From contig OY726573.1 of the NCBI GenBank assembly GCA_963383645.1, positions 13,796,989 to 13,860,988 on the forward strand: a stretch of DNA of 64,000 nucleotides, in the 5' to 3' direction. The notes under the pieces are model-generated. The model was not told the DNA's origin. It saw nothing but the letters and a program-made list of their open reading frames with translations, and searched no databases. Both the position numbers and the translations under genes were made by a program. Shown here in pieces: positions 14,912 to 60,442 of the stretch; the first letter of the stretch is position 1, and each line of letters begins with the position of its first letter. Source of the DNA: Muscardinus avellanarius. Its lineage: Eukaryota > Chordata > Mammalia > Rodentia > Gliridae.

Positions 14912-14926
14912 AAAATAGGACTGGGG

Positions 14927-29242: not shown

Positions 29243-32200
29243 TGTGTGATACTGAGAGTTTGAACTCAAGGGCATTCTATCTCTGAGCGACACCACAAGC
29301 TCCTTTTATTATTTTTTTTTTTTCTGTTTTGAAAGAGGGTCTTGTGACGTTGCAGAGAGGCCATCCTTGAACTTGCGATCCTCCTGCCTCAGCCTCCCAA
29401 TTATTGAGATTACAGGTGTGTGAGAGTACTGAGATGCAGGCTCCTGCTTGAAGGGTTAAAGGAAGCAACTCTGGCTCCCGAGAAGCAGCTTGGGATGCCG
29501 GGCTGGGAGGCGAGCACACTTCCTCTAATCGGGGAGCTAGGAGTCTTGCCGAGTTGCCTTCAAGGTCGGAAGCAGCTCTGGCCCTCTCTCTGAAGGTCCT
29601 TCCCACCATAGACATTTCTCAGAAAACTTATTGGTATGATCAACAGCTTGAGATGTTAGGAGCGGTCACAGGTGTTCTTGCTTCTTATTGTAAAACAAAA
29701 AGTTGCTTTGAGACTCGTCCTTTGGCTTTACTCACACACATCCATTGTTGCTTTAAGATAACCTTGTAAGGTCTAAAATAGTTAACTCGTCTATGGATGA
29801 TCCCAGAGAAGCTTTCTCTATAAGAGTCTGATTGCTCTTTCAATAAAACATGCAGTGTACATGAAACCTGCATCCCCTGTGTCCCGTGAATCGGCCTTAC
29901 CCTTAGGTCTCCAGTGCACTAGATACTGACACAGGTGTGCGCCACCATGCCAGGCTCTAGAGCTTTTTCCTATTGCGCACAGATGCGTGGCTTGTTTTTG
30001 AACCCCCTGCCCCCATCTCGGTTGGGTGAGGTGGGAATGCTGCAGGGAAGGGCAGGGATATCCACGTGTAGATGTAAGCATCCTCTGTGAACTTGCAAAA
30101 TGCCCCCAGTGATCCTGGACCTTTCCTTCTCTCTCAGGCCAAGAAATCATCAGACCCCTGCTAGGAGAATCGATAATGCCGGGGCCTCTGCTAAACCAAG
30201 TGGAATATTATGTCTACTCACTTTCTGCTGAGCACTGCTCTCAATTTTTGGCGCCAGCAGGCAATTTCATGGGCACCCAGAGCCACACTGAAATTTTCAC
30301 ATCAGCGATTTCACTGTCATCATTCAAAACCCGTGGTTCCCTACGCTAGAGGACCCAATACCCATGTTCTCTTACAGATATTTTTCTAGTACCTATATAT
30401 TTTCCTGAAATGAAATTCATAGGTCATACAACTGCCTATACATAATATTTCAAAGTAATCAATATGATGTTCTAACTGTAATTTAAAAAGGATAAATGAA
30501 AGTTATTTAGTTATTATTGTATGTCTTTTATTTTATTTACTTTTTAATTTTCAGAGTACTGGAGATGAAACCCAGGTGCATTCTACCTCTGACCTATACC
30601 CCCAGCTGTATTTTATTTTTTATTTTTTTATTTTTTTGGTGATACTGGGGTTCCTGGAAACCCTTCTACCTCCGGGCTACACTCACAGACTTATTTTTAT
30701 ACTTTTTTATTTGGAAACAGGGTCTCTTAAGCCTGTGCGGCTGGCTTTGAACCCGCGCGATCCTCCTGTCTCCGCCTCCCAAGCGCGGAGATTACAAGCG
30801 TGCGCTGCCACGCCCGGCGACTATTTTTGATTTTGAAACAGGGTCTCACTAAGTAGCTGAGGGGCTCACTAAGTAGCTGAGGCTGGCTTCCAACCTTCTA
30901 TCTTCCCGTCTCAGCCTCCCAAGTACTGGGATTACAAACCTGCGCCACCACACCGGCCTGGAGTGTAGCCCGGAGGTAGAAGGGTTTCCGGGAACCCCAG
31001 TACCACCAAAAAATTAAATAGGGTAGCCAGGCATGATGGCACACGCTTGTAATCCTGGCGCTTGGGAGGCTGAGACAGGAGGATCACACGGGTTCGAAGC
31101 CAGCCTCAGCTACTTAGTGAGGCTCTCAGCAACTTAGTGAGACCCTGTTTCCAAATAAAGTAGAAACTAGGTCTGGGAATATAGCCCGGAGGTAGAAAGC
31201 CTCTGGGTTCCACCCCCAGTACCACAAAAAAAAATAAAATAAGGTGTGTGTATGTGTGTGTGTGTGGGGGGGGCTTATAGGTAGAATTCCCCCTGAGTTC
31301 AATCCCCAGTACCGCAAGATAAATAAATTAATTAATTAAAATAAAAAACCATTGTCCCCAGGCGCAGTACCTCGCCTTCCCCGCCACCGCTGATGATGCG
31401 CTTGCAGTCGCTGGTGCTGGCGATGGCCGTGACCCCGATGCGGTGCGCGCTGCTAATCACGTACATCAGCCGGCCGGTCTCGGGGGCGAAGGCGCGGATC
31501 TTACCGTCGTCCCACGCTGGAAGTAGAAGGAGACAGTAGGATGCGCAAGGCAGCCCCTCGCTGCAGACGCAGACGTAGGAGATGGAAGGCAGAGGCCCAC
31601 AGCCCCAACCTCCAGCGACTCTGTGCGGATGGACAAGGGAGGGGTTTGTCTGGCTTGAAGCTGCAGCCAGGTGCACCCCACCCAGGTGAGGAAGGTGGGC
31701 GGGAGGAGGCTGGAGGCCAGCTCTGCCCTCCCAAGAGCTGCACCAGGCACAGGCCACCTGCTAGTTTGTTTCAGATCTGAGACTTTTGCAGGTAATGACT
31801 GGCTTCCCGCCCACCCCCCACTTTTTTTCTTTGGTACCGGGGGGGTGGAACCCAGGGACCATCAGCCTCTTATCGACACCCCAGCCCTGGTTTATATTTT
31901 GAAATAGGGTCTCCCTAAGTTGCCAAGGCTGCCTGGCCTTGAACACGAGACCTTCCCATTTCAGCCTCCCAACATCCAGATACTGGGTATACAGGCATAT
32001 ACCACCACACCTGACTGACTTTGTCTTTAAGAGGGAAATTTAGTAATGTCGAATTTAGTCATCTCAATTTCCTTTTCTTTTTCCTTTTTTGTTTTTGTAT
32101 TTTTATTGGTGCATTATAACCATACATCACGTTGGAATACAAGACTTGAGAGGATGTATAAGCACACATCATCCAATTAGCCCTCATCCAGCCCCCATCC

Positions 32201-35132
32201 CATTCCCTCCCCCTCCCTCGATCCCATGCTTGTTTGGTGATTATCTTTGATACATTTGTTTATGTACCTCCTGAGTTTTAAAGAGGTTCCATCTTCCCCC
32301 ATCCCATCCCCTCTGATTGGTCACCTTAATTGCTTCTCAGTAGGGCCCTTTCTACAACTCGACCTCCTCCTATTACCCCTTTCTTCCTAGTTTTGCTAAT
32401 TAGGGGAAGCATCTGGTTATTATTTTCTGTGATATTTTCCTATGCATGTCGCATTGCAAGTTCCGATCCCACTCTTGATGGCCCCAGTAATGGCCTAGCA
32501 CCCGGAGGACTTTGATCCTGACCTCGCTGGCTCTAGCACTGGCCTTATCTCATGGGAGGCCCCAATCCTGGCCTTGCTGGCCCCCGCACCGGCCTAACCC
32601 CTCGGCAGGCTCTGATCCCGGCCTTGCTGGCCCCGGCACTGGCCATACCACTCGGCAGGCTCCGATCCCAGCCTCTGAGGCCCCAGCACCGGCTTTGCCT
32701 CACGGCAGGCTCTGATCCTGGCCTCGCTGACCCCGGCACTGGCCTAACCCATCAGCTGGCTCCAATCCTGGCCTTGCTGGACCCGGACATTCTAACCCCT
32801 CGGCAGGCTCTGATCCCAGTCTCGGAGGCCTCAGTAGCAGCCTTGCCTCATGGCAGGCTCTGATCTCAGCCTCACTGGCCCTGGCACTGGCCTAACCCCT
32901 CAGCAGGCTCTGACCCTGGCCTCGGGAGGCTCTGATCCCGGCCTCAGAGGCCCCAGGACCAGCCTTGCCTCACAGCAGGCTCCAGTCTCGGCCTTGCTGG
33001 CCCCGGCACCAACCTAACCCCTCTGCAGGCTCTGATACTGGCCTCGGAGGCCTCAGTAGTGGCCTTGCTTCACAGCAGGCTCCTATCCCAGCCTCACTGG
33101 CCCCGAACCAGCCTAACCCCTCGGCAGACTATGATCCCGGCCTCACTAACCCTGACAAACCGGTCTAGCTCCTCGGCAGGCTCCTATCCTGGCCTCAGAG
33201 GCCCCAGCACTGGCCTTGCCTCACAGCAGGCTCCGATACCAGCCTCGCTGGCCCCGGCACCGACTTAATCCCTCAGCAGGCTCCGATACCAGCCTCAGAG
33301 GCCTCAGTAGTGGCCTTGCCTCATGGCAGGCTCCAATCCTGGCCTCGCTAACACTGGCACACTGGCCTAACCCCTTGGCAGGCTCCTATCCTGGCCTTGG
33401 AGACCCCAGCACCAGCCTTGCCTCATGGCAGGCTTTGATCCCAGCTTCACTGGCCACAGCACCAGCCTTACTCCTCAGCAGGTTCCAATCCAGGCCTCGG
33501 AGGCCCCAGCACCAGCCTTGCCTCATGGCTGGCTCCGATCCCAGCCTCGCTGACCCAGGCACTGGCCTAACCCCTCGGCAGGCTCCGATCCTGGCCTCGC
33601 TGGCCCTGGAACTGGCATAACCCCTCAGCAGGCTCCGATCCCGGCCTCAGAGGCCTCAGTAGTGGCCTTGCCTCATGGCAGGCTCTGATCCCAGCCTCGC
33701 TGAACCCAGCACCGGCCTAACCTCTCGGCAGGCTCCAGTCCCAACCTCGGAGGCCCCCAAACCGGCTTTGCCTCATGGCAGGCTCTGATCCTGGCCTCAT
33801 TTGCCCTGGTACCGGCCTAACCGCTCGGCAGGCTCTGATCCTGGCCTCGCTAACCCTGGCACACCGGCCTAACACTTTGGCAGGCTCTAATCCCGGCCTC
33901 GGAGGCCTCAGTAAGCATCCTTGCCTCACAGCAGGCTCTGATCCTGCCCTTGCTGACCCCGGCACCGGCCTAACCCCTCAGCAGGCTCCAGTCCTAGCCT
34001 CAGAGGCTCCAGGACTGGCCTTGCCTCATGGCAGGCTCCGATCCTGGCCTCGCTGGCCCCGGCACCGGCCTAACCCCTCGGCAGGCTCCTATCCTGGCCT
34101 AGGAGGCCCCAGCAACGGCCTTGCCTCATGGCGGTCTCTGATCCTGGCTTCGCTGGCCCTGGCACCAGCCTAACCCCTCAGCAGGTTCCAATCCCGGCCT
34201 CGGAGGCCCTTGCACCAGCCTTGCCTCACAGCAGGCTCTGATCCTGGCTTCGCTGGCCCCGGCACCGGCCTAACCCCTCGGCAGGTTCTGATCCTGGCCT
34301 CAGAGGCCCCTGCACCGGCCGTGCCTCACAGCAGGTTCCGATCCTAGCTTCACTGGCCCCAGTACCGGCCTAATTCCTCAGCAGGCTCTGATCCTGGCCT
34401 TAGAGGCCCCAGCACTGGTCTTGCCTCACAGCAGGCTCCGATCCCAGCCTCGCTGGTCCTGTCACTGGCCTCACCCCTCGGCAGGCTCCAATCCCGGCCT
34501 TGGAGGCCCAGTACCGTCCTTGCCTCACGACAGGCTCCAATCCCAGCTTTTCTGTCCCTGTCACCGGCCTCACCCCTCAGCAGGCTCTGATCCGAGCACC
34601 CTATTCACCCAGCAGGTTGTCCCACGTTCCCGAGGGCACGTGGTGGTAGCATTCTGCCTCTGGGGTTATTTCTTCAAAAGTTCCAGATGTATTGCATCAG
34701 ATCTCTGCCTCCCCTGAGTCCTGGCCACTGCCATTGCCGCTGCCTCCACCATTTCAAATCTTTCCCAAGCTCTTTTCCCACATTGCATGTTGTCCACTGT
34801 TCGAAAGCATGCACGACGGTAGCATTCCACCTTTGGGGTAATTTCTTCAGAAGATCAGGGTGGGTTGGATCATATCTCTGCCTCTCCCAAATACAAGCTT
34901 CCACTGCCACCGCGGCCACCACTGCCAACACCGACTTCCTCCTAGGTCTCTGCTAAACTCTCTCCTTACAGGTGCTGTCCAGGATTCTTAAGAATGTAAA
35001 GAAGCAGTCCTCCTTCGCGGGGAATTTTTCCAAAGGTTCCAGTTCAGTTGGATATGTTTTTTCTGCATCTCCAGTATCCTGGCTGCCACTGCAGCCATCT
35101 TGACCCCTCTCCAATATTTTTCTTTTCCTTTT

Positions 35133-35164
<32 letters not shown>

Positions 35165-36972
35165 GAGAAGACAGTATGCTTGGTTTGAGGAGGTTGTGGG
35201 ATCAGGCACTTGGTAGCAATGAGTTTTTTCCTTTCCTCCCTTCCAATAGCCTCACAGCACAGAGCAGAATCTGCTGTTCTAAGTGCACCATGGCCTGGCG
35301 CAGCACAGTAGTGCTGGGTTCCTCTGTACCCGCGGCTGGGCCTCTTGTTTAGTACCGGGTCTCCCGAAACTCGGGCTCGGCCTCCTGCTCCATACTATGC
35401 CTTCCCAGGCGTAGGCCGGGCTGACTGCCCCCTGCCCAGGGCACCGGGCCTTGTGGCCAGGTCCCTGGACTTTCTGGGGGTCCAGCATGCCCTGCGCAAC
35501 CCCTGCCTGGGGCCCAGGCTGCAACCCAGGCCTCCAGTCCTTCTGGGGGTCTGGCGTGCTCCGCGCGACCCCTGCCCAGGGCCCGGGGCGCAATCCTCCT
35601 GTCTCAGCCTCCCAAGCGCTGGGATTACAAGCATGAGCCACCACACCCGAATCCTGATGTCACCATTTTAATAGCTACTCCTAAAGATCTACTTAACTCC
35701 ATGAATGTGAACCAGTAAATTTACTTTTGGACCACTGGGGAAATTTGCATATGGATTAGGCATACGGCAATATTAATAAATAATGATTTTATAGAAAACA
35801 GATTAAAGCATGGTGCACACTTGTAATCCCAGTACCTGGGGGGGAGGGGGCTGAGACAGGAGGATCACCATTCTCGAACAGCACCAGCTACACACAGGTT
35901 GGAAGCCAGCCTCAGCTACTGAGTGAGGCTCTCAGCAACTTAGTGAGACCCTGTTTCCAAATAAAGTATAAAATAGGTCTGGGAGTATAGTCCGGAGGTA
36001 GAAAGCCTCTGGGTTCCACCTCCAGTACCACCAAAAAAATAAATAAATAAAATAAAGAATAAAGAGCCAGGCGTGGTGGTGCATATTTGTAATCCCAGCC
36101 CTTGGGAGGCTGAGACAGGAGGATCACACAGGTTCGAGGCCAGCCTCAGCTACTTAGTGAGGCTCTCAGCAACTTAGTGAGACCCTGTTTCCAAATAAAG
36201 TATAAAATAGGTCTAGGAGAATATCCCGGAGGTAGAAAAGTACCTGGGTTTCACCCCCAATACTACAAAAAATAAAAAATAAAATTCCATTTGAGGCATA
36301 ACATAGTTTGAGCTGGGTTTTTTTTTATCTCTGATGAAACAAGCAGGGTTCTGACTTGAGCGACTTGTACCGCAAAGGTATCAGACCTGTTGCAAAGTCA
36401 AATTACTAAATTTCACCTTGGAGAGAAAGACCTGTGCCATACACATCAAGCCAAGAGAAAAGAATTTGTGTATTGGCTCTTCCTGGCTCAGAAAATCTCC
36501 CAATTGGAAGGGAACTCCAGGGAGAGGCTAGATTAGAAGCCAAGAGCAGCGCACAAAGGGAGCCCCACGTGTAGAGGTCAAAAGGCAACGAGAAAGGTGG
36601 ATCAAAACCACTGCCAGACCGCCAGGCGTGGTGGCGCACGCTTGTCATCCCAGCACTCGGGAGGCTGAGACAAGAGGATCATCGTTCACAGACAGCCTCA
36701 GCTACTACTTAACGAGGCCCTTTGCAACTCAGTGAGACCCTGTTTCAAAATAAAGAATAAAGCCGGGCGTGGTGTCGCACACTTATAATCCCCGTGCTTG
36801 GGAGGCGGAGACAGGCAGATCGCGCAGGTTCACAGCCAGCCGTGCTGGCTTAAGAGACCCTGTTTCCAAATTTTAAAAAATATTTAAAATAGGTCTGGGA
36901 GTGTAGCCCTAAGGTAGAAGGGCTTCCAGGAACCCCAGTACCACGAAAGGAAGGAAGAAAGAAAGAAAGAAA

Positions 36973-44739: not shown

Positions 44740-47700
44740 TTTTTTGCGGGTCTGGGGATGGAACCCAGGGGTATTCGACCTCCGAGCTCCACCCCCTGCC
44801 CTGTTTTTTATTCTTTATTTTGAAACAGGGTCTCACTGAGTTGCGGAGGGCCTCACTCGGTAGCTGAAGCTGTCCGCGAACCACGATCTTCCGGTCTCAG
44901 CCTCCCGAATGCTGGGATATCAAGCGTGCACCACCACGCCCGGCTTAAATTCGATGCTTTTGAAAGAGCCTCTTGTTGGCGCAGCAGAGTGCTGCGTGAA
45001 TAAAAGAAAACCACAAGTTCCTTCACTAACAAGAGAAGTGACTCTGGACCACTTGCCAGAAGCCGCTGGCCTCAGTTCCCAAAGCCACAGAATCATCCCT
45101 CACTGAGTTGCTGAGAGCCTCACTAAGTAGCTGAGGCTGGCTTCGAACCCGTGTGATCCTCCTGTCTCAGCCTCCCAAGCGTGGGGATTATAAGCGTGCG
45201 CCACCACGCCTGGCTACAATTTTCTTTTATCATCCCTGGGACTGCTCAATGAGCTGGCTGCATCACCCTACTAAAACCCCGAAGGCAGTAATGATAGCCT
45301 CCAACTTGAGCCTACACCATCACCCAGGGTCACTTTGGAAACACACCATCAACCCGTAGCAATGGCTTGGAGTCTAATTATCTTTATCACAGTGGGAATG
45401 TTTACGTATTAAATTTGAGGGGTTAAACATCGGGGAGTTGGAGGCTGGGTGTAGTGGTGTACACCTCTAATCCTGGTGTTTGGGAGGCTGAGGCAGGAGG
45501 ATCGAGACCTGCAGCAATTTAGTGAGATTCTTTAAAAAAAATAAAAATAGACGCCAGCTGGGGCCCAGGTCGCGGGACTCTGGGCCCCGGGGCCAAACTG
45601 CGCATAGCACGCCAGACCCCTGGAGAAACCGGGCCCAGTACCCTGGGACCCAGGTGGGGGTCAGGCGGGGCACGCCAGCCAGGGCCCGGGTCGCGAGACT
45701 CTGGGCCCTGGGCTGAACTGCGCGTAACACGCCAGACCCCTGGAGAAACCGGGCTCAGTACCCTGGGTTCCGGGCAGGGGTCGCGCGGAGCACACCAGCC
45801 GGGGCCCGGGTCGTGGGACCCTGGGCCCTAGGCAGAGTAGTGCGGATCACTCTGGACCCATGGGGAAACCGACCTGGTTACAGTGCTACTGAGTGAGTGC
45901 CTGATCCCACTACCTCCTCAAACCACATATACTGTCTTCTCTTATTAAAAAAAAAAAAAAAAGAACAGAAAAAGAAAAAGAAAAATATCGGAGAGGAGGT
46001 AAGAAAGCCGTTATGGATGCCAGGACACTGGAGATGCAGACAAAACTTATCTAAATGCACTGGAACTTATGGAAAAATTCCCCGTGAAGGAGGACTGCTA
46101 TTTCTCTATATTGTTAAGAATCTCAGATATCACCTGTAAGGAGAGAGTTTAGCGGAGACCAAGGAGAAAGGCGGTGTTGAAAGAGGTCTCCGCGATGGTG
46201 GTGGAGACTTATATTCAGGAGAAGCAGAAACCGGATCCTACCAACCTTATTTTTTTGGAGAAATTATACCAAATGTCGAATGCTACCATCACGCATGCTT
46301 AGGAACACTGGACAACATTCAGAGTGGAAAAAGAGCCTGGGAAGGATTTGAAATGGTGGAGGCAGTGGCAATGGCAGTGGCCAGTACTCAGGGGAGGCAG
46401 ACATCTGATACATTACACCTGGAACCTTTGAAATAATAACCACAGAGACAGTGATCAGAACCTGCTGAGGGGTTAGGCAGGTGCCAGGGCCAGTGGCCGA
46501 CATCGAAGCTTACTGTGAGGCAAGGCCACTACTGAGGCCTCCGTGGCCGGGATTGGAGCCTGCCGAGGGGTTAGGCCAGTGCTGGGGTCAGCGAGGCCAG
46601 CATCAGAGCCTGCCATGAGGCAAGGCCGGTGCTGGGGCCTCCGAGGACAGGACTGGAGCCTGCTGAGGGGTTAGGCCAGTGCTGGGGCCAGCAAGGCCGG
46701 CATCGGAGCCTGCCATGAGGCAAGGCCAGTACTGGGGCCTCCGAGGCCAGGATAAGAGCCTGCTGAGGGGTTAGGCCAGTGCTGGGGCCAGCAAGGCCGG
46801 CATCGAAGCCTGCCATGAGGCAAGGCCAGTACTGGGGCCTTCAAGGCCGGGATCAGAGCCTGCTGAGGGATTAGGCCGGTGCTGGGGCCAGCGAGGCCGG
46901 CATCAGAGCTTGCCGTGAGGCAAGGCCGGTGCTGGGGCCTCCGAGGCCGGGATAAGAGCCTGCTGAGGGGTTAGGCCGGTGCTGGGGCCAGCAAGGCCGG
47001 CATCAGAGCCTGCTGTGAGGCAAGGCCGGTTCTGGGGCCTCCGAGGCCAGGATAAGAGCCTGCCGAGGGGTTAGGCCAGTGCTGGGGCCAGCGAGGCTGG
47101 CACTGGAGCCTGCCATGAGGCAAGGCCAGTACTGGGGCCTCTGAGGCCGGGATCGTAGCCTGCCTTGAGGCAAGGCCGGTACTGGGGCCTCTGAGGCCAG
47201 GATAAGAGCCTGCCGAGGGGTTAGGCGAGGCCGGGATCGGAGCCTGCCTTTAGGCAAGGCCGGTACTGGGGCCTCCGAGGCCAGGATAAGAGCCTGCCGA
47301 GGGGTTAGGCTGGTGCTGGGGCCAGCAAGGCCAGCATCGGAGCCTGCCATGAGGCATGGCCAGTGCTGGGGCCTCCAAGGCCAGGATCGGAGCCTGCCGA
47401 GGAGTTAGGCCGGTGCTGGGGCCAGCGAGCCTGGCATCGGAGCCTGCCATGAGGCAAGGCCGGTACTGGGGCCTCCAAGGCCAGGATAAGAGCCTGCCGA
47501 GGGGTTAGGCCGGTGCTGGGGCCAGCGAGGCCGGCATTAGAGCCTACACTGAGGCAAGGCCGCCAGTTCTGGGGCCTCCGAGGCCAGGATAAGAGCCTGC
47601 CGAGGGGTTAGGCCAGTGCTGGGGCCAGCGAGGCTGGCACTGGAGCCTGCCATGAGGTAAGGCCGGTACTGGGGCCTCCGAGGCCGGGATTGGAGCCTGC

Positions 47701-50700
47701 CTTGAGGCAAGGCCGGTACTGGGGCCTCTGAGACCAGGATAAGAGCCTGCCGAGGGGTTAGGCTGGTGTTGGGGCCAGCAAGGCCAGCATCAGAGCCTGC
47801 CATGAGGCATGGCCAGTGCTGGGGCCTCCAAGGCCGGGATCAGAGCCTGCCGAGGAGTTAGGCCGGTGCTGGGGCCAGCGAGGCTGGCATTGGAGCCTGC
47901 CGTGAGGCATGGCCGGTGCTGGGGCCTCCGAGGCCAGGATCGGATCCTGCCGAGGGGTTAGGCCGGTGCTGGGGCCAGCGAGGCCGGCACCGGAGCCTGC
48001 CATGAGGCATGGCGGGTGCTGGGGCCTCTGAGGCCAGTATCGGAATCTGCCAAGGGGTTAGGCCGGTGCTGGGGCCAGCGAGGCCGGCATCGGAGCCTGC
48101 CATGAGGCATGGCGGGTGCTGGGGCCTCTGAGGCCAGTATCGGAATCTGCCAAGGGGTTAGGCCGGTGCTGGGGCCAGCGAGGCCGGCATCGGAGCCTGC
48201 CATGAGGCATGGCCAGTGCTGGGGCCTCCGAGGTCAGGATCTGAGTCTGCCGAGGGGTTAGGTCGGTGCAGGGCCAGCAAGGCCAGCACCGGAGCCTGCC
48301 ATGAGGCAAGGTCGGTACTGGGGCCTCCGAGGCCGGGATTGGAGCCTGCCGAGGGGTTAGGCCAGAGCTAGGGCCAGTGAGGCTGGCATCAGAGCCTGCT
48401 GTAAGGCAAGGCTGGTGCTGAGGCCTCCGAGGCCGGGATCGGAGCCTACCGTGAGGCAAGGCCGGTACTGGGGCCTCCGAGGCCAGGATAAGAGCCTGCC
48501 GAGGGGTTAGGCCGGTGCTGGGGCCAGCGAGGCCAGTATCGGAGCCTGCCGTGAGGCAAGGCCAGCATCGGAGCCTGCCGTGAGGCATGGCCAGTGCTGG
48601 GGCCTCCTAGGCTGGTAGCGGAACCTGCCGAGGGGTTAGGCTGGTGCTGGGGCCAACGAGGCTGGCATTGGAGCCTGCCGTGAGGCTAGGCTAGTGCTGG
48701 GGCCTCCGAGGCTGGGATTGGAATCCTGCCAGGGGGTTAGGCCGGTGCAGGGGCCAATGGCCAGCATCGGAGCCTGGCGTGAGGCAAGTTCACTCTTGTG
48801 GCCTCCAAGGCCGGGACCAAAGCCAGCTTAGGGGTTAGACTGGTGCAGGGGCCAGCGAGACCAGAACTGGGGCCTCCCATGAGGCAAGGCCGCTGCTTGA
48901 GCCAGCGAGGTCTGGATCAGTCCACTGAGTAGCCAGGCCACTACTGGGGCCGTCAAGAGTGGGATCGGTACTTGCAACACAGCATGCACAGAGAAATATC
49001 GCAGAAAATATAAATCAGACGCTTCTCTTAATCAGCAAGAACTAGGAGGAAAAGGGCAACAGGAAGAGGTTGAGCTATAGAAAGGGCCCTATAGTGAAGC
49101 AACTAATGTGACCAATCAGAGGGTATGTAATACTGGAGGACGGAGCCTCTTTAAAACGCAGGAGGTACATAAACAAATGTATCAAAGTAAATCACCAAAG
49201 AAGGTGGGATGGAGGGAGGGGGAGGGAATGGGGTGGGGGCTGGAGGAGGGCTAATTGGATGATGTGTGCTTGCATATCCTCTCAAGTCTTGTACTCCAAT
49301 GTGATTGATATATGACTACAATGCACCAATTTAAAAAATAAATTAATTTAATAAATAAATAAATAAAAATTAGAGGCTGAGACAGGAGGATGGCAGGCTT
49401 GAGACCAGCCAGACTCAACAACTTAGCAAGGTCCTCAGCAACTTAGCAAAAAACCCTGTTCTCGCCAGGCGTGGTGGTGCACACTTGTAATCCCCGTGCT
49501 TGGGAGGTGGAGACAGGAGGATCGCGCAGGTTCGAAGCCAGCCGCGCTGGCTTAAGAGACCCTGTTTCCAAATAAAAAGTATAAAATGGGTCTGGGAGTG
49601 TAGCCCGGAGGGAGAAGGTTTCCAGGAACTTCTACACACACCAAAAAAAGGACTAAAACATAGTGTTGAGGGTGTATCTCAGAGGTAGAATGCCTGTGGG
49701 TTCCATCCCCAGTACTGCAAAAATAAATAAATAAAATAAAAAATAAATTGCACATCATCTGAGTGGCAAATTCTAAATCTTGTGCCTTCCTGCTCCATCC
49801 TGCCCAGGACCTGAATCATCCTTTGTCCAACATCTCGGTTGTATCTTCTACCAGCCTGTTATCCACTTAGTAGCCATCTTGGTTTATCAGATCAAGCGTC
49901 TCATTATCACACCTTGCTGGCTGGTGTCCAACTAACCCTTATCTCACTTTGTAATGGCCCCAAAGCACAAGAGAAGTGATGCTGGAGATCCAGGCGTGCC
50001 AAAGAAAAGCCAACTTAACCAAAGAAAAATAAATTGTATGCCTAAGTTGCTAAGAAGATTTTTTTTTATATACTGGGTATTGAACCCAAGGACCCTCTAC
50101 TTCCAAGCTATATCTCAGCCCCTCCCCCCTTTTTTTGCGGGTTTGGGGATGGAACCCAGGGGAATTCTGCCTCCGAGCTACACCCCCAGCCCTATTTTTA
50201 ATTTTTTATTTTGAAACAGGGTCTCATTGAGTTGCAAAGGGCCTCACCAAGCAGCTGAGGCTGTTCCCAAACCACGATCCTCCTGTCTCAGCCTCCCGAA
50301 TGCTGGGGTTACAAGCGTGCACCACCACAATGGGCCTACCTCAGCCTTTTTTATTTTATATCTCACTACATTGCCGAGGATCTAAGGTGCTGAGCCCGGC
50401 CTTGAACCTGCAATCTGCTGGCTGCAAACCTGCGATCCTCCTGCCTCTGACTCTTAAATACTGGGATCCCAGGCCTGCACCACCAGTCCTGGCAAGATGC
50501 AATTCTTTAACCCCAAACAACGGTGCCAACAGCGTTAGTGGCTGGCTGTAGCTGAAGCTCCCTCTAGTGGGTCTCTACATATCCCAGTTCTGTGAGGCCC
50601 AGAACTTACTTGATGGGTTTGTAGCTGGGGCTTTTGCAAAAGACCAGCAATCCGGCTCCAGAGCCCACCAACAAACCCCCCATCTTCAGGTACTTGATAG

Positions 50701-56353: not shown

Positions 56354-59300
56354 TCCTTCTTTTTTTGGTGGTCCTGGGGTTCCTGGAAGCCCTTCTACCT
56401 CCGGGCTACACTCCCAGACACCTATTTTTTAAATATATTTTTATTTGGAAACAGGATCTCTTAAGCCAGCAGGGCTGGCTTCGAACCTGCGCGATCCTCC
56501 TGTCTCCGCCTCCCAAGCACGGGGATTACAAGTGTGCCCACCACGCCCGGCATCTTTTTGTTTTCTATATGCTCTTTTTTAGGGAAAGTCCATGCTGCTA
56601 GTGTAGGGGAGAAAATGTCAGGGCGAATCACACCTGGATGGTGTCTGCTCACCAAACTGTACTTGTCCTTTACAGGCCCGGTGTCCGTGAGCAGTTTGGT
56701 CCTGGGATTCATTTTGAGGATATCTCCCGTTGTGGTGCCAAGGTAGAAAAAGCTGTCATCGCTGGCCATCTGGGAACAGAGAAAAAGTGACCTGAGGACA
56801 CACGTTCCTCGGGTGGCCTGCAAGGCCTGATCAGTGCAGGGAGGCGAGGCCCTGCTACCTCATGAAGTCCTTCAAACATGCTCACGGCGACTACTTCTAA
56901 CTCCACAGACTCAAATATGGCTAAGAATAGCCCAGTGTGATGGTGCACGCCTGGAATTAAGTACTTGGGAGGATGAGACAGGAGGATGGCAGGTTCAAGG
57001 CCAGTCTCGGCATCTTAGCGAGACCCTTACTTAGCAAGACCCTGTTTCCAAATAAAAAATAGAATAGGGGTGGGGATAGCTCAGAGGTAGAGTGCCTCTG
57101 GGTTCAATCCTCAATGCAAAGAAGGAAAGAAAGAAAGAAAGAAAGAGAGAAAGGGGAAGAGAAGAGAAACAAAGGAAAGAATGGTAAGAGTAGCTCAAAA
57201 GAAGTAGAATCAAGGCCAAAGATAGTCCTGGAGGAAATACTAGACTCACGTTAGCCTGTGCATTTTACCTGATGTATATTTGGGTATGATGTTAACGTGC
57301 TTATCCTGCCAGTCCCAACTCCAGAGACAAAAGCTGGGCCTGGTGGCACATGCTTGTAATCTTTGTACCTGAGAGGCTGAGACAGGAAGATGGCATGTTC
57401 GTGGCCAGCCTCAGAAACCATCTCTTGAGAGGCCTTCAGAGGGCTCCTAGGGAGAGGGTGTGCTCCACCAAAGAGGGTGTACATGTACTTTATCTCGTGT
57501 TCTCTAAAATCTGTATTTGAAAAATGACTATGCAGGGACTCTGGGCCCCGGACCAGACCGCGCAGAGCACGCCAGAACCCTGGAGAAACCGGGGCCTGGT
57601 TGCAAGGCCCCAGGCCCTGGGCCCCAGGCGGGGGTCAGGCGGGACATGCCAGACCCCCTGAGAAACCGGGGCTGGGTTGCAGGACCCTGAGCGCCAGGCG
57701 GGATCGCGCGGAGCACGCCAGACCTCTGGAGAAACCGGGGCCCAGTCACAAGGCCCTGGGCCCCGGGCAGAGTCCTGCAGAGCACACTGGACCCCTGGGG
57801 AAACTGGGCCCGGGTTACAGTGCTACTGAGTGCATGATCCCACAACCTCCTCAAACCACACATACTGTCTTCTCTTATTAAAAAAAAAAAAAAAAAGGAA
57901 AAGAAAAAGAAAAAGAAAAAAAATATATAGGAGAGGGGTCAAGAAGGCCATGGCGAATGCCAGGATACTGGAGATGCAGGCAAAACTTATCCAAATGAAC
58001 TGGAACTTTTGTAAAAATTCCCCACGAAGGAGGACTGCTTCTTTTCTACATTCTTAAGAATCTTGGACATCAACTGTAAGGAGAGAGTTTAGCGGAGACC
58101 TAGGAGAAAGGCGGTGTTGGAAGCGGTCTCCGCGATGGTGGTGGAGACTTGTATTCAGGAGAAGCAGAAATCGGATCCTACCAACCTTATTTTTTGGAGA
58201 AATTACACCAAACGTCGAATGCTACCGTCATGCATGCTTAGGAACACTGGACAACATTCTAAGTGGAAAAAGAGCTTGGGAAAGATTTGAAATGGTGGAG
58301 GCAGTGGCAATGGCAGTGGCCAGTACTCAGGGGAGGCAGAGATCTGATGCATTACACCTGGAACCTTTGAAGTAATAACCCCAGAGGCAGAATGCTACCA
58401 CCACGCACCCTCGAGAACGTGGGATAAATGGCTGGGCAAAGAGGGTGCTCGGATTGGAGCCTGCCAAGGGGTGAGGCCGGCAACGGACACAGCAAAGCTG
58501 TGATTGGAGCCTTCCATGAGGCAAGGCCAGTGTTGGAGCCTCCAAGGCCGGATCGGAGCCTGCCGAGGGGTTAGGCCAGTGCTGGGGCCAGTGACGCCGG
58601 GATCGGAGCCTGCTGTGAGGCAAGGCCGGTGCTGGGGCCTTCAAGGCTGGGATCGGAGTCTGCCAAGGGGTTAGGCCGGTGCCGAGCCAATGGCCGGCAT
58701 CAGAGCCTGCCATGAGGCAAGGACTCTACTGAGGCCTCCAAGGCCGGGATTAGAGCCTGCCGAGGGGTTAGGCCAGTGCCGGGGCCAGCAGCCGGGATTG
58801 GAGCCTGCTGTGAGGCTAGGCTGGTGCTGAGGCCTCCGAGGCTGGGATTGGAGCCAGCCGAGGGGTTAGGCCGGTGTGTGGGCCAGCGAGGCCAGAACCG
58901 GGGCCTCTCATGAGGCAAGGCTGCTACTTGAGCCAGCGAGTTCTGGATCAGTCCATCAGGTAGCTAGGCCACTACTGGGGCTGTCAAGAGTGGGATCGGT
59001 ACTTGCAACACGGCATGCACAGAGAAATATCGGAGAAAATAAAACCAGATGCTTCCCCTAATCAGCAATAACTAGGAGGAAAGGGGCAACAGGAAGAGGT
59101 TGAGCTATAGAAAGGGCCCTATAGTGAAGCAACTAATGTGACCAATCAGAGGGTATGTAATACTGGAGGATGGAGCCTCTTTAAAACGCAGGAGGTACAA
59201 AAATAAATGTATCAAAGTTAATCACCAAACAAGCATGGGATCGAGGGAGGGAGAGGGAATGGGATGGGGGCTGGATGAGGGCTAATTGGATGATGTGTGC

Positions 59301-60442
59301 TTGTATATCCTCTCAAGTCTTGCACTCCAATGTGATATATGATTACAGTGCACCAATAAAAATAAATTAAAAAAAGAAAAATGACTATGCATTAAAAGGG
59401 AGGAATAAATCAATAAAGAATGGAGTTAGACATAGGATTGTACAAATCCATATTAAAAACATATCCCTGGAGCTGGGCGTGGTGGTGCACGTGTGTAATA
59501 TCAGTGCTTGGATGGCTGAGACAGGAAGAGCGCAGGCGCAAGACCAGCCTCGGCATCTTAGCAAGGCAGCCATGTGGTGAGACCCTGATTCAAAATAAAA
59601 AGTAAAATCAGGCTTAGCAGTGTAGCTCAGGGGTAGAATGTCCCCTGGGTTAAACCCCCAGTACCATACACAAGAAGGAAGGAAGGAAGGAAGGAAGGAA
59701 GGAAGGAAGGAAGGAAGGAAGGAAGGAAGGAAGGAAGGAAGGAAGGAAGGAAGGAAGGAGAAAGAAAGAAAAAGGATAGGAAAGGAAGGGAAGGAAGGAA
59801 ATATTGCTGGGCTGGGCGTGGTGGTACATGTTTGTAATCCCAGCTACTGAGGAGGCTAAGACACTAAGGTCACAGGTTCAAGGCCAGCCTGGGGAACTGA
59901 GTCTCAAAAATAAAAATAAAAATAAAAAGACCTAGGGATGTAGCTCGGTGGTAAAGCACCCCGGCTTCAATTCCCAGTACAAAATAAATGTATTAATACA
60001 TTCTCTTTATAGAAGAGACTGCACTTCCACAGTGACCTTTACTATCAGAAACCTTACTTCCAGGGGCAGAAATAATATAGGCGGCGTAGGGAAGCGGTGT
60101 GGGCTCGGAGCGCGCCTGGCTCTGCTGACCCTCTTAGAACCACCTTCCCTCTGGGCGAGCAGGCTGTGGGTCTGAGGACAACCACTGAAGACAGAGTGAG
60201 GTCGTCTCCCACCTCTGCCTCCTCCTTGGTGCCTTCCAGGTGTCCTGCCCACCTCCCTGCCCAGTGCCCACACACGCCCCGAGGTTGGGACCAGGAACAG
60301 GAACTTCCAGCCACTTCAAATAAAACCTGAAGCGAGGCTTACGGTGATGCTCATTACAATTCTTTTCGTCTGCCCCGTTTGGCATTCAGTTGGCCAGATT
60401 TTTCTGTTTGGGAGATCCAGTTCCCACACGCGGATTGTCCCA
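17717..60442 (-). CDS. CFAP52: CFAP52 (WDR16), last ten coding exons; 5' exons outside window
   Basis: Ten exons with AG/GT boundaries join in phase on the minus strand: 60343-60442, 56653-56769, 50610-50710, 42756-42926, 37507-37655, 31371-31516, 28518-28669, 21886-21988, 19537-19648 and 17717-17916. Together they give 1,351 coding bases: 449 residues, a stop, and one base of a preceding codon. The protein matches the C-terminal part of CFAP52/WDR16, starting near human residue 180, and carries repeated WD40 signatures ([45 protein letters not shown]). CFAP52 is known as a ciliary protein that lines the inside of axonemal doublet microtubules and is linked to motile-cilia function and laterality. 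The product ends about eight residues beyond the human C terminus. USP43 follows downstream on the same strand, the same neighbour order as in human. Roughly four more exons should lie beyond 64,000. Confidence 0.96.
17917..19536. mobile_element. CFAP52 last intron: short tandem and SINEs
   Basis: A 20 bp unit (GAATAGAATCGAATAGAACA) is repeated twice at about 17,945-17,990. Plus SINEs follow at 18,100-18,200 (weak), 18,220-18,345, 18,350-18,560, 18,561-18,720, 18,737-18,960 and 19,080-19,320; ID arm at 18,975-19,040. The SINE at 19,080 carries an unrelated insert of about 60 bases (19,097-19,160). Confidence 0.7.
19537..19648 (-). CDS. CFAP52: CFAP52 coding exon (probably exon 13)
   Basis: The acceptor is tgaattccag|ATTGCT and the donor GTCACAG|gttagt. 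The exon is 112 bp with 37 codons plus [21 protein letters not shown] through ...GMHFVT. The one-base overhang pairs with GT of the last exon to encode Gly. Confidence 0.96.
19649..21473. other. CFAP52 intron: unique DNA then SINEs
   Basis: 19,649-20,175 is unique. A minus SINE fragment (20,195-20,260) meets a plus SINE lacking its start (20,283-20,420) at a (TA)n/(GA)n join. Plus SINE 20,455-20,640 contains (GT)n 20,544-20,592 in place of its middle. Unique 20,641-20,870; plus SINEs 20,875-21,050 and 21,245-21,390. Confidence 0.7.
21474..21829 (+). repeat. Tandem array of 76 bp ID-like monomers with 152 bp higher-order repeat
   Basis: Units start at 21,474, 21,550, 21,626, 21,702 and 21,778 (the last one cut at 21,829). 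Each is a tRNA-like ID monomer (GGGCTGGCGGTGTGGCTCAG, then GGATTCAGTCCCC) plus an A/T-rich linker. Types alternate: AGGTAGAATG (units 1, 3) and AGGTACCATG (units 2, 4, 5). Units 1+2 and 3+4 look identical over 152 bases. A more diverged ID copy (21,400-21,473) precedes the array. It lies in the CFAP52 intron next to the donor at 21,885. Confidence 0.88.
21886..21988 (-). CDS. CFAP52: CFAP52 coding exon (probably exon 12)
   Basis: The acceptor is ctacttttcag|CCGTCT and the donor AGAAAG|gtaggt. The exon is 103 bp with 34 whole codons, [20 protein letters not shown] through ...[10 protein letters not shown] tandem array of ID monomers ends about 55 bases beyond the donor, inside the following intron. 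Confidence 0.96.
21989..23842 (-). mobile_element. CFAP52 intron: unique stretch then minus SINEs
   Basis: 21,989-22,300 is unique. Minus repeats: ID 22,310-22,370; SINEs 22,385-22,580, 22,585-22,700, 22,720-22,930, 23,035-23,240, 23,275-23,480 and 23,515-23,690 (altered right arm). 23,700-23,842 is unique. Confidence 0.75.
23843..23924 (+). mobile_element. Fragment of a Tigger/MER2-like DNA transposon end
   Basis: CAGGTTGATTGTCTTGTAAA ... GAACCAGAAGTAATTTGGAT resembles the terminal sequence of old Tigger-group elements. It is interrupted by the TA-flanked MITE that follows. Confidence 0.45.
23927..24125. mobile_element. Tc1/mariner-type MITE with TA duplication
   Basis: Terminal inverted repeats begin TCAGTTGAGCATCTCTAA and end (complement) TCAGTTAAGCATTCCTAA, about 16 of 18 matching, each flanked by TA (23,925-23,926 and 24,126-24,127). 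Internal phrases (CTAATCTAAAA, ATTTCAGATTTTAGATTTT) recall the Tigger/MER2 group of DNA transposons. It is non-coding and 199 bases long. Confidence 0.7.
24141..25084. mobile_element. SINEs and unique DNA before the L1
   Basis: Plus SINEs 24,141-24,340 and 24,375-24,560 (both altered right arm, adjacent and near-identical); minus SINE fragment 24,735-24,858; 24,860-25,084 unique. Confidence 0.75.
25085..28165 (+). pseudogene. Decayed L1 (LINE-1) with ORF1 and partial ORF2, 3'-truncated
   Basis: ORF1 reads from about 25,103 to 25,909: a coiled-coil-like N-terminal part, then the conserved block TPRQ-like/[12 protein letters not shown] ... [20 protein letters not shown] and [13 protein letters not shown]. 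It is broken by TGA at 25,331. ORF2 starts at 25,987 with an endonuclease domain ([32 protein letters not shown]) and continues into reverse transcriptase ([41 protein letters not shown]). A frameshift near 27,250 brings a stop at about 27,305. The element ends at about 28,165, before the catalytic DD motif and without its 3' UTR. A SINE splits ORF2 at 26,917. It is inactive. Confidence 0.9.
26917..27116 (+). mobile_element. B1-dID-type SINE inserted in L1 ORF2, with 13 bp duplication
   Basis: The SINE begins GCTGGGCGTGGTG and ends in an A-run. The L1 sequence AAGAAAACCAGAA is present on both sides (26,904-26,916 and 27,117-27,129). It belongs to the subfamily whose left arm reads AGCCAGCCGCGCTGGC and whose right arm ends CTTCCAGGAACACCAGTACC. 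The net insertion is 213 bases, a multiple of three. Confidence 0.9.
28165..28235 (+). mobile_element. ID right-arm fragment abutting the truncated L1
   Basis: GTGTAACTCGGAGGTAGAATGC followed by a degenerate B box (GGGTTCAAGCC) and an A-rich tail, joined directly to the middle of the L1 reverse transcriptase. It lacks a left arm. Confidence 0.7.
28518..28669 (-). CDS. CFAP52: CFAP52 coding exon (probably exon 11)
   Basis: The acceptor is ggcgttccag|GTGAGG and the donor GACCTCCT|gtaggt. The exon is 152 bp with 50 codons ([20 protein letters not shown] through ...[12 protein letters not shown]) plus CT, completed by C in the next exon to give Leu. It contains two WD-type blade ends (VRVWEI and CIIWDL). 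Confidence 0.96.
28670..31370. other. CFAP52 intron: SINEs flanking a 1.1 kb unique block
   Basis: Plus SINE 28,743-28,970; minus SINEs 29,005-29,195 and 29,250-29,430 around (GT)n 29,199-29,248. 29,430-30,545 is unique with no recognised gene. Minus: ID 30,550-30,610, SINEs 30,640-30,825 (altered arm) and 30,830-30,960. Plus: SINE fragment 30,965-31,010, SINE 31,022-31,230, ID 31,235-31,320. Confidence 0.7.
31371..31516 (-). CDS. CFAP52: CFAP52 coding exon (probably exon 10), GC-rich
   Basis: The acceptor is ctacttccag|CGTGGG and the donor GGCGAG|gtactg, a weaker donor than its neighbours. The exon is 146 bp with 48 whole codons, [20 protein letters not shown] through ...[11 protein letters not shown]. 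Third codon positions are almost all G or C, unlike the exons at 42.8 and 50.7 kb, while the protein stays conserved. Confidence 0.95.
31517..32072. other. CFAP52 intron: unique DNA and one minus SINE
   Basis: 31,517-31,820 is unique and rather GC-rich near the exon; minus SINE 31,825-32,020. Open frames here overlap the exon in wrong frames. Confidence 0.6.
32073..35590 (-). mobile_element. Composite VNTR retroelement, copy 2 (sense to CFAP52)
   Basis: Read on the minus strand: a GC-rich 5' module (35,590-35,340), a divergent segment (35,340-35,200), the shared phrase CCTCCTCAAACCAAGC, an A-tract (35,158-35,125), a middle module (35,120-34,610) with an internal partial duplication, a VNTR (about 34,605-32,460), a 3' module (32,455-32,110), then AATAAA and an A-rich tail to about 32,073. 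A 60-base SINE left end (35,591-35,650) is fused directly to the 5' edge in the same orientation. It lies in the CFAP52 intron between the exons at 31.4 and 37.5 kb. No flanking duplication was found. Confidence 0.75.
32460..34605 (-). repeat. VNTR of copy 2
   Basis: It has the same 50+50 base unit, seen on the plus strand as alternating CCTAACCCCTCGGCAGGCTC and CTTGCCTCACGGCAGGCTCC phrases. About 21 units are present, more diverged from each other than the best units in the copy at 46-49 kb. Open frames across it are not credible genes. Confidence 0.85.
35591..37506. mobile_element. SINEs, microsatellite and AT-rich palindromic block
   Basis: SINE left end 35,591-35,650 (-); plus SINEs 35,805-36,050, 36,065-36,280, 36,622-36,760, 36,764-36,950 and 37,093-37,200; (GAAA)n 36,945-37,010; ID 37,015-37,080; almost pure A/T at 37,205-37,383; ID 37,385-37,445. 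36,281-36,620 is unique. Confidence 0.75.
37507..37655 (-). CDS. CFAP52: CFAP52 coding exon (probably exon 9)
   Basis: The acceptor is ttccctgcag|TGGTAC and the donor TTTCAG|gtaagg. The exon is 149 bp with 49 whole codons, [20 protein letters not shown] through ...MRDGKSIIS, including a WD-type blade end (DIRVWHT). Phase is consistent on both sides. Confidence 0.96.
37656..42755. mobile_element. CFAP52 intron: SINE-dense 5 kb
   Basis: Plus SINEs 37,700-37,850, 37,850-37,975, 38,606-38,740, 38,765-38,995, 39,005-39,220, 39,605-39,800, 39,831-39,965, 39,965-40,190, 40,640-40,850, 41,100-41,320, 41,370-41,620, 41,730-41,945 and 42,510-42,700; minus SINE 42,241-42,420. ID monomers 38,035-38,090, 40,210-40,290 and 40,390-40,460 (diverged). 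(AT)n 37,978-38,025 and 38,883-38,935; (GAAA)n 40,858-40,897; (TTG)n 42,205-42,240. Unique: 38,100-38,605, 39,220-39,600, 40,465-40,635 and 41,950-42,200. Confidence 0.75.
42756..42926 (-). CDS. CFAP52: CFAP52 coding exon (probably exon 8)
   Basis: The acceptor is tctctttaaag|GAAAAT and the donor CCGTT|gtaagt. The exon is 171 bp with 56 whole codons, running [20 protein letters not shown] through ...[11 protein letters not shown]. It contributes the junction between two propeller blades. Confidence 0.96.
42927..45550. mobile_element. CFAP52 intron: SINEs up to VNTR element copy 3
   Basis: Plus SINEs 43,141-43,345, 43,365-43,560, 43,705-43,905, 43,924-44,110 (altered arm) and 45,441-45,550 (left half only); minus SINEs 44,320-44,520, 44,741-44,945 and 45,095-45,218; (AAAT)n 44,111-44,156. 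Unique: 42,930-43,140, 44,530-44,680, 44,950-45,095 and 45,220-45,440. Confidence 0.75.
45551..49374 (+). mobile_element. Composite VNTR retroelement, copy 3 (longest, about 3.8 kb)
   Basis: It has the same module order as the copy at 57.5 kb: GC-rich 5' tandem module (45,551-45,890; repeated phrase CTGGAGAAACCGGG), A-tract (45,945-45,985), middle module (45,986-46,465), a long VNTR (about 46,466-48,990), and a 3' module (48,991-49,340) with a CCAAT motif, ending in an AAATAAAT-rich tail. It sits in a CFAP52 intron, antisense to the gene. A SINE left half (45,441-45,550) immediately precedes it. I could not establish a convincing target-site duplication because both flanks are A-rich. Confidence 0.75.
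46466..48990 (+). repeat. VNTR of copy 3: 100 bp units built from two 50 bp halves
   Basis: About 25 units. Each unit alternates half A (GGAGCCTGCCGAGGGGTTAG ... CCAGCGAGGCCGGCATC) with half B (GGAGCCTGCCATGAGGCAAG ... CCTCCGAGGCCGGGATC). Units at 48,001-48,100 and 48,101-48,200 are identical. Some units have lost or duplicated one half. Open frames of 80-176 codons run through it only because the period is not a multiple of three and stop codons are rare in GC-rich DNA. Confidence 0.85.
49375..49750 (+). mobile_element. SINEs 3' of VNTR element copy 3
   Basis: SINE body lacking its start 49,375-49,460; altered-arm SINE 49,465-49,650; ID 49,660-49,730. Confidence 0.75.
49755..50060 (+). pseudogene. 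Tigger-type (Tc1/mariner) transposase fragment
   Basis: At 49,954 an open frame begins [20 protein letters not shown], closely resembling the N terminus of Tigger/CENP-B-like transposases. About 200 bases upstream (CATCCTGCCCAGGACCTGAA ... TCACTTTGTAATGG) resemble the transposon leader. Similarity stops near 50,040, where the frame runs into an ID repeat. It is an ancient fossil with no function indicated. Confidence 0.6.
50061..50609 (-). mobile_element. Minus SINEs before a CFAP52 exon
   Basis: ID arm 50,085-50,120; SINE 50,125-50,335; B1-like 50,340-50,495. 50,496-50,609 is intron sequence next to the exon. Confidence 0.7.
50610..50710 (-). CDS. CFAP52: CFAP52 coding exon (probably exon 7)
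   Basis: The acceptor is cccctag|GGTGTG and the donor ATCAA|gtaagt. The exon is 101 bp: 33 codons ([20 protein letters not shown]...) plus two bases of a Lys codon completed in the next exon. This is a Gly-rich beta-propeller segment. Confidence 0.95.
50711..52906. mobile_element. CFAP52 intron: SINE cluster
   Basis: 50,711-50,965 is unique. Plus SINE 50,965-51,135; (ATT)n/(GTT)n 51,270-51,340; minus SINEs 51,340-51,545, 51,575-51,755, 51,770-51,870, 51,990-52,185 (altered arm), 52,205-52,410 and 52,420-52,520; minus ID 51,910-51,970; plus SINEs 52,585-52,700 and 52,710-52,906. Confidence 0.75.
52907..53118 (+). repeat. Polypurine tract (GA/GGGAGA/GAGGA)n
   Basis: About 212 consecutive purines, changing from GGGAGAGA units to (GA)n, then (GGGAGA)n, then (GAGGA)n. 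It starts as the A-rich tail of a SINE and ends where the next SINE begins. Confidence 0.9.
53119..54720. mobile_element. CFAP52 intron: SINEs and dinucleotide tracts
   Basis: Plus SINE 53,132-53,305; (GAAA)n/(GA)n 53,306-53,369; ID 53,380-53,435; (AC)n 53,437-53,484; (GT)n 53,640-53,668; minus SINEs 53,665-53,840, 53,885-54,095 and 54,455-54,662. 54,096-54,440 is unique. Confidence 0.75.
54721..55170 (+). mobile_element. Possible solo LTR of MaLR type (old endogenous retroviral relic)
   Basis: About 450 bases free of SINEs start GTGTTACGGTTAGATAG and contain a CTCTCTCCCTCTCTCTGC stretch, a GAACTGTGAG-like phrase (AAACTGTGAGCGAATAAACC, with AATAAA) and a TTAGGTTATATCGGTGG ending. The order of these phrases resembles mammalian MaLR LTRs. 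No coding sequence is present. The assignment is from memory of LTR style, not alignment. Confidence 0.4.
55171..56652. mobile_element. CFAP52 intron: SINEs with AAAT, GA/GT and CTTT tracts
   Basis: Plus SINEs 55,305-55,410, 55,412-55,615 and 55,655-55,835; (AAAT)n 55,840-55,889; ID 55,895-55,950; (GA)n(GT)n 55,977-56,022; 56,030-56,280 unique; (CTTT)n 56,288-56,355; minus altered-arm SINE 56,365-56,552. Confidence 0.75.
56653..56769 (-). CDS. CFAP52: CFAP52 coding exon (probably exon 6)
   Basis: The acceptor is tctgttcccag|ATGGCC and the donor AGTTTG|gtgagc. The exon is 117 bp, exactly 39 codons in phase 0, beginning [20 protein letters not shown]. The block [20 protein letters not shown] is near-identical to what I recall of human CFAP52. 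The first residues (T-M-A-S-D-D across the junction) differ from human (G-V-D-D-D-D) but the length is the same. The internal Met is not a start codon. Confidence 0.95.
56770..57518. other. CFAP52 intron: SINE and unique DNA before VNTR element copy 4
   Basis: Plus SINE 56,928-57,120 with a GAAA-rich tail; a SINE left fragment 57,325-57,420; the rest shows no recognised feature. Confidence 0.6.
57535..59375 (+). mobile_element. Composite VNTR retroelement, copy 4, with 16 bp target-site duplication
   Basis: Modules in order: GC-rich 5' tandem module (57,535-57,830), A-tract (57,879-57,925), middle module (57,926-58,445), VNTR of about 50/100 bp units (58,446-58,990), and 3' module (58,991-59,355) with AATAAA ending in an A-rich tail. 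The perfect 16-base direct repeat GAAAAATGACTATGCA flanks it at 57,519-57,534 and 59,376-59,391. The insertion point reads ATTT|GAAAA, close to the L1 endonuclease preference. No open frame is shared with the other copies, so it looks non-autonomous and mobilised by L1. It lies in a CFAP52 intron, antisense to the gene. The layout resembles primate SVA but I see no sequence kinship; the family name is unknown to me. Confidence 0.8.
58446..58990 (+). repeat. VNTR of copy 4 (short allele-like array)
   Basis: About five to six 100 bp units of the same A/B half structure, against about 25 units in the copy at 46-49 kb. The strong length difference between copies with otherwise matching ends is what a VNTR module would show. 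Confidence 0.8.
59392..60342. mobile_element. CFAP52 intron: SINEs, (GGAA)n and unique DNA
   Basis: Plus SINE 59,472-59,670; (GGAA)n 59,673-59,760; plus SINE 59,812-59,985; 60,000-60,342 unique. Overlapping short open frames there are not convincing. Confidence 0.7.
60343..60442 (-). CDS. CFAP52: CFAP52 coding exon (probably exon 5 of 14)
   Basis: The acceptor is tttttttacag|TGGGAC and the donor ATCACC|gtaagc. The exon is 100 bp: one base completes a codon from the previous exon, followed by 33 codons starting [16 protein letters not shown] and ending KRIVMSIT. It carries the WD dipeptide-type end of one propeller blade (RVWEL). The next exon upstream was not found between 60,443 and 64,000. 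Confidence 0.95.

Follow-up and report, generated by a model that had tools for sequence, protein, structure and literature searches.

How did a GC-rich repeat with an internal VNTR come to lie at several places within a single stretch of 64 kb (the whole DNA analysed here, hereafter the window), and did it move there as one unit? We found one repeat family at four loci in the window, at 57.5, 45.6, 32.1-35.6 and 14.47-14.91 kb. A blastn search with the 57 kb copy retrieved its modules at 45.56-49.35 kb (+), 32.09-35.59 kb (-) and 14.47-14.89 kb. The query was the element alone, without flanks, and what we state about flanks comes from a separate comparison of 1-kb flanking segments. The three long copies (three of the four loci) have the same order of parts, that is, a GC-rich tandem 5' module, an A-rich tract, a middle module, a VNTR of 50-bp units and a 3' module of approximately 430 bp with AATAAA and an A-rich tail (Table 1). 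Copy length here is 1.8-3.8 kb. The earlier note had described four loci with modules in a shared order where complete. Such an order was confirmed for the three long loci, with the restriction that the GC-rich 5' module is clearly common only to the copies at 57 and 45 kb. The fourth locus belongs to the family by its blastn match, but its order is not intact, since it is 5'-truncated and internally inverted.

Table 1. Coordinates of the four copies and of their parts in the window.
Feature	Position	Strand	Basis
57 kb copy: 5' target-site duplication, GAAAAATGACTATGCA	57519..57534	+	exact 16-bp match to 59376-59391
57 kb copy: GC-rich 5' tandem module, unit ~69 bp, 71% GC	57535..57830	+	TRF, composition, alignment to 45 kb copy
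57 kb copy: internal A-rich tract	57880..57923	+	TRF; 6-bp TRF row AAAAAG in the A-tract
57 kb copy: middle module	57930..58447	+	three-copy alignment, self-comparison
57 kb copy: VNTR, 10 alternating 50-bp units of two types	58456..58949	+	unit tiling, TRF
57 kb copy: 3' module with A-rich tail	58950..59375	+	sequence, alignment
57 kb copy: motifs of the 3' module	59142 (CCAAT), 59180 (TTTAAAA), 59355 and 59361 (AATAAA)	+	sequence, position scan
57 kb copy: G-quadruplex motif	59237-59270	+	G4 scan
57 kb copy: 3' target-site duplication, GAAAAATGACTATGCA	59376..59391	+	exact match
45 kb copy (second), 120-bp 5' tandem units	45553..49364	+	TRF, blastn, alignment, unit tiling; outer edges by eye
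45 kb copy: VNTR, 47 units	46457-48918	+	unit tiling
35 kb copy (third): variant 5' module, A-tract, middle module, VNTR, 3' module	32062..35590	-	blastn, alignment, tiling; outer edges by eye
35 kb copy: VNTR, 35 tiled units	32514-34588	-	unit tiling
14.5 kb copy (fourth): 5' target-site duplication, AAAATAGGACTGGGGT	14458..14473	+	exact only here and at 14912-14927
14.5 kb copy: inverted part, 5 VNTR units	14474..14731	-	blastn, unit tiling
14.5 kb copy: non-inverted part, last ~160 bp of 3' module, A/T-rich tail	14729..14911	+	96% to 57 kb copy
14.5 kb copy: 3' target-site duplication, AAAATAGGACTGGGGT	14912..14927	+	exact match

In alignments of the middle and 3' modules, the 57 kb copy is 90-92% identical to the 45 kb copy and 86% identical to the 35 kb copy, while the latter two share 81-83%. 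The GC-rich 5' module shows 79% identity between the 57 and 45 kb copies; that of the 35 kb copy is a different version, with 54-58% identity in alignment and local blast matches of 71-73%. The 57 and 45 kb copies are 0.06-0.11 apart in K2P distance, and the two lie 0.10-0.22 from the 35 kb copy, suggesting that the family does not stem from a very recent burst and that its source lineages had already diverged. In all three long copies, a spacer of about 70 bp ending in TTCTCTTATT or TTCTCTTATTT separates the 5' module from the A-rich tract, whose position is equivalent among them according to a composition scan. The middle module is about 520 bp long (464 bp in the 45 kb copy, where its last ~60 bp are missing) and consists of an old tandem duplication with an offset of ~175-190 bp, detected by self-comparison with 61% identity over 295 columns. 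The tail of the 45 kb copy is of the AAAT type, not pure A. When five module pieces were compared by blast with the rest of the window, only weak matches were obtained, which were simple repeats or at chance level. The family had no match in phage and plasmid collections. In IMG/VR, exact-match scans with one pattern from the VNTR and two overlapping ones from the 3' end returned zero hits.

The VNTR is made up of two 50-bp unit types in alternation, neighbouring units being of unlike type in 85-100% of the steps. By simple tiling there are 10, 47, 35 and 5 units in the copies at 57, 45, 35 and 14.5 kb, respectively, with a GC content of 65-68% in the three long copies. Within the long arrays, mean identity among units of one type is 0.81 for the first type (at both 45 and 35 kb), and 0.84 (45 kb) and 0.77 (35 kb) for the second, compared with 0.70-0.80 between copies. 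Within-array identity being higher than between-copy identity, homogenization is indicated in three of the four long-array cases, the exception being the second type at 35 kb; the same unit-identity comparison showed no homogenization in the short arrays. In 7 of 10 comparisons between copies, a VNTR end unit had an end unit of the other array as its best match. At the 5' end this happened in two of four comparisons, which were those between the 57 and 35 kb copies, reciprocally, the other two leading into the 45 kb array, where that end is missing. At the 3' end it happened in five of six, the 57 kb unit preferring an interior site of the 35 kb copy by 43 versus 42. Fixed repeat units at both ends and a variable number of units have been described for the arrays of SVA and LAVA (PMC4432496).

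No long open frame is kept in the family, in agreement with the earlier statement that no frame is conserved between copies. With the two longest frames examined for each piece, the longest ATG-started sense frame outside the VNTR has 70 aa (35 kb copy), and a frame of 52 aa in the 57 kb copy corresponds to 36 aa in the 45 kb copy. A Pfam search with the three forward frames of the non-VNTR parts of the 57 kb copy (six translations) revealed no family above the cut-off and three weak matches below it (best E 0.012), and in an Rfam scan of the window every family stayed below its gathering score. All four copies have AATAAA near the end, followed by an A-rich or A/T-rich tail. Their 3' ends also contain a G-quadruplex (G4) motif of 34 bases at an equivalent place and with few changes; the whole window has 18 such motifs. 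The last 170 nt are not predicted to fold more stably than shuffled sequences (z +1.17; 180 of 200 shuffles are at least as stable).

Insertion marks were seen at the edges of two copies. The 57 kb copy lies between two exact copies of GAAAAATGACTATGCA, a sequence absent from elsewhere in the window even when up to three mismatches are allowed. As a chance control, 94 of 20,000 random placements at equal spacing shared any 16-mer, 75 of these 94 with all four bases; five examples were inspected and appeared by eye to be SINE-derived. Unrelated pairs of 40 bases had a 16-mer in common in 5 of 4000 draws. The insertion site, as judged by eye, reads TTTC/AAA on the nicked strand, and the perfect 16-bp target-site duplication (TSD) at an L1-like cut site reported for this copy was thus upheld.

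The fourth copy is 5'-truncated and internally inverted, keeps its 3' end and has a 16-bp TSD of its own. Judged from sequence, this is the form of a putative 5' inversion ("twin priming"), known from L1-type insertions; such inversions have been attributed to twin priming (PMC12016303). Its insertion site lies in SINE-like sequence and reads, by eye, TTTT/AG on the nicked strand. Being sited in a SINE-linker motif, this TSD is weaker than that of the 57.5 kb copy: AAAATAGGACTGGGGT resembles the SINE linker, with 62 matches in the window at up to three mismatches (both TSD copies included) and, at one mismatch, two further sites besides the two exact ones. At its spacing, 86 of 20,000 random placements shared a 16-mer. 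The AAAATAGGACTGGGGT duplication of the inverted copy also adjoins a SINE, the far side of which again shows AAAATAGGTCTGGGGC (15126-15141; region 14458-15141), suggesting that the inverted copy and the neighbouring SINE are two insertions at the same A-rich site.

TSDs of 16 bp, within the range of ~10-20 bp for L1-mobilized non-LTR retroposons, are therefore present in two of the four copies (57.5 and 14.5 kb), both with L1-type nick motifs by eye (TTTC/A and TTTT/A). One study scored TTTT/A, TTTT/G and TTTC/A as sites of the L1 endonuclease and reported 13 bp as the median TSD length of L1 insertions (PMC12016303). The count of copies with TSDs, proposed in the earlier note as a check, was positive for these two copies and negative for those at 45 and 35 kb, at whose edges we sought a TSD and found none that was convincing. 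Without one, an L1 insertion at these two places would have to involve an old deletion of the target or a later rearrangement. A truncated SINE head adjoins the 5' end of the 35 kb copy and another SINE head lies 50 bp from the 45 kb copy. We considered these heads as an Alu-like 5' domain of the element and dropped the idea because by eye there is none at the edge of the 57 kb copy, SINEs are ubiquitous here and no TSD is seen by eye around the longer unit. The 1-kb flanks of the copies have many matches, SINE copies by eye, scattered at differing distances from the element edges, which does not suggest a single duplicated block. Origin from a single segmental duplication, which the earlier note had named as contrary to its reading, is thus disfavoured within the window, since the flanks have no shared order.

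Based on these data, we consider it highly probable that the four loci are copies of one non-coding composite with a 50-bp VNTR, spread as polyadenylated RNA that was reverse-transcribed in trans by L1 proteins. A Pol II transcript would start in or near the GC-rich 5' module and AATAAA would serve its polyadenylation. L1 would supply the endonuclease and the reverse transcriptase, with target-primed reverse transcription at the nicked DNA, and the conserved G-rich 3' end may help in the recruitment of L1. Changes in VNTR length would occur in the DNA, either between rounds or after them. The earlier proposal that the element moved as one unit through RNA gains from the 5' inversion, from a second 16-bp TSD, from nick motifs of the L1 type and from VNTR end units that match between copies. 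Dependence on other machinery, most simply that of L1, is likewise supported by the nick motifs, the TSDs and the inversion, with no long frame kept. An L1 mechanism is well supported for two of the copies, and for the family as a whole it is reasonable.

The main rival reading concerns origin. The family may be an L1 with an internal deletion, in which case the tandem part, the middle module and the VNTR would be an expanded 5' UTR, the last 160 bp would be a 3' UTR, and both frames would have been lost. Such an element would still use L1 in trans, so that on mechanism it overlaps with the explanation that we prefer; as an account of origin it is a possibility to be taken seriously, although we lean against it. 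The middle module of the 35 kb copy begins with GGAGAGGGGTCAAGATGGC, which we take to resemble the start of mammalian L1 5' UTRs, and the tandem duplication within this module and the G4 tract in all four 3' ends point the same way. In perissodactyls, L1 5' UTRs are GC-rich, 305-2855 bp long and in some cases tandem-repeated (PMC5872511). L1 of the naked mole-rat has ~30-bp repeats in the 5' UTR and, like primate L1s, a G4 in the 3' UTR, and mouse L1 has monomers of ~200 bp (PMC7952902). On the other hand, the Pfam search with the 57 kb copy's forward frames revealed no L1 coding remnant above the cut-off. The family also has an internal A-tract and, in its 3' module, the CCAAT/TTTAAAA stretch, neither of which is expected inside an L1. 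Matches between the modules and an L1 relic in the window are at chance level, but the relic has no UTRs by eye, so this says little. Retroviral ancestry of the 3' module is a different matter: it could be the U3-R end of an endogenous retrovirus (ERV), as is SINE-R in SVA, mobilization still being by L1. The argument for it is the order of motifs, GACCAATCAG followed by CTCTTTAAAA and, ~175 bp on, by AATAAA in the 57 kb copy; at 45 and 35 kb, too, GACCAATCAG precedes CTCTTTAAAA. Since no evidence beyond motif order speaks for it and the 57 kb copy gave no ERV protein match above the cut-off in its forward frames, we find this origin unlikely; if true, the plan of the family would match that of SVA even in origin.

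Two other readings deny movement by L1 altogether. Four copies in 64 kb with large tandem arrays, half of them without a TSD, might be taken for pieces of a dispersed satellite or of segmental duplications and not for retroposons. This is very improbable given that the flank matches appear to be scattered SINEs at differing distances from the edges, the nearest thing to a shared flank being a SINE head, adjoining the 35 kb copy and 50 bp away from the 45 kb copy. In addition, the copies differ in orientation, the TSD at 57.5 kb is unique in the window and one copy, truncated on its 5' side and inverted, retains its 3' end. Even less credible, in our view, is a complete LTR element or ERV fragment moved by retroviral integration. 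The 3' module does have promoter-like and poly(A) motifs, but self-matches longer than 60 bp in the 57 kb copy are confined to the 5' tandem module and the VNTR, and so there are no terminal direct repeats in this copy. Moreover, the ends have A-rich tails, and the TSDs are 16 bp long, compared with the 4-6 bp produced by retroviral integration.

Mobilization by L1 being the preferred reading, the family is best read as a non-autonomous, L1-mobilized VNTR composite retroposon, analogous to SVA and not a demonstrated relative of it. The SVA-like architecture noticed earlier is borne out: as in the SVAs of hominoids, there is a non-coding composite with a GC-rich 5' part, a central VNTR of GC-rich ~50-bp units that varies in length, a 3' module with AATAAA and an A-rich tail, and TSDs. 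SVAs are typically 1.5-3 kb long (PMC12593883). Central GC-rich units of 50 bp are shared with the hominoid VNTR composites in general (SVA, LAVA, PVA, FVA; group range 30-50 bp), and so is the keeping of units at both VNTR ends, seen here in the 7 of 10 comparisons mentioned above; in the LAVA of gibbons, too, terminal VNTR units are conserved and interior ones variable (PMC4432496). The 3' part of LAVA differs in consisting of AluSz and L1ME fragments. Unlike SVA, the window family has tandem units of 69-120 bp, an internal A-tract and a middle module in place of a 5' CT-hexamer array, which in the hominoid group is followed by an Alu-like region. No CT-type hexamer was present in the TRF list or on reading the sequences, the only 6-bp row being AAAAAG, in the A-tract. 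Because of this absence and because the host, judged by its SINEs, looks like a squirrel-type rodent, we do not file the family with the ape group (SVA/LAVA), although in its working it is VNTR-composite-like.

L1-derived elements offer another comparison, HAL1 being a non-autonomous example. Tandem repeats in the 5' part, a 3' G4 tract and L1-type insertion marks are common to the window family and to L1 UTRs or L1-derived elements; the absence of an L1 coding remnant in the frames tested and the internal A-tract set the family apart. Processed pseudogenes and other host RNAs mobilized by L1 resemble it in TSD, poly(A) and 5' inversion (13%; PMC12016303), but the family is repeated, has tandem arrays of its own and has no known gene parent. 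One of the four window copies is 5'-inverted, compared with 0 of 322 germline SVAs; 5' inversion was quoted for 18.4% of germline L1 and 2 of 23 somatic SVAs (PMC12016303). This leans toward L1 or processed pseudogenes rather than SVA, in what is a tiny sample.

VNTR composites have been described as hominoid-specific (PMC4432496; PMC7353768), and in the openly licensed literature we found none in a rodent among the titles and abstract openings of the matches listed. The family is thus likely to be novel, although a repeat library may already contain it under an automatic or unnamed entry, and independent assembly outside apes is its likely history. It is an evenly balanced question whether a squirrel-type rodent evolved a second VNTR composite from scratch, one whose tandem part acts as promoter, whose 50-bp VNTR has two unit types and fixed ends, and whose G4 3' end recruits L1. 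If it did, the SVA plan would be a repeatable way to ride L1, and the VNTR would have a job in mobilization. A second, independently assembled family in a rodent would also serve as another test case for questions beyond the reach of a single clade, such as the role of the VNTR, the reason why its end units are kept, the G4 3' end as a general hook for L1, and silencing by the host. Long GC-rich VNTRs in introns, like that of the 35 kb copy in CFAP52, are in addition a source of length variation.

Exons of CFAP52 were located at 31332-31760 and 37373-37795 (-), where two frames match solved CFAP52 chains. The intron that separates them contains the 35 kb copy in sense orientation, and the 45 and 57 kb copies are upstream of these exons on the opposite strand. 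A frame with a ubiquitin-hydrolase domain at 10.0-10.8 kb is, by synteny, presumably USP43. A broken L1 at 25334-28176 retains ORF1 RNA-binding, endonuclease and reverse transcriptase domains in separate frames, its 5' and 3' UTRs being absent by eye. The window is crowded with dimeric SINEs, which we take to be of the B1-dID type, as in squirrels and dormice. A tRNA-Pro called by ARAGORN at 15852-15936 falls on a SINE head and is probably a false call. Finally, a tandem array at 21412-21829 is composed of 76/152-bp units of ID-type SINE pieces, that is, a SINE turned into a small satellite.
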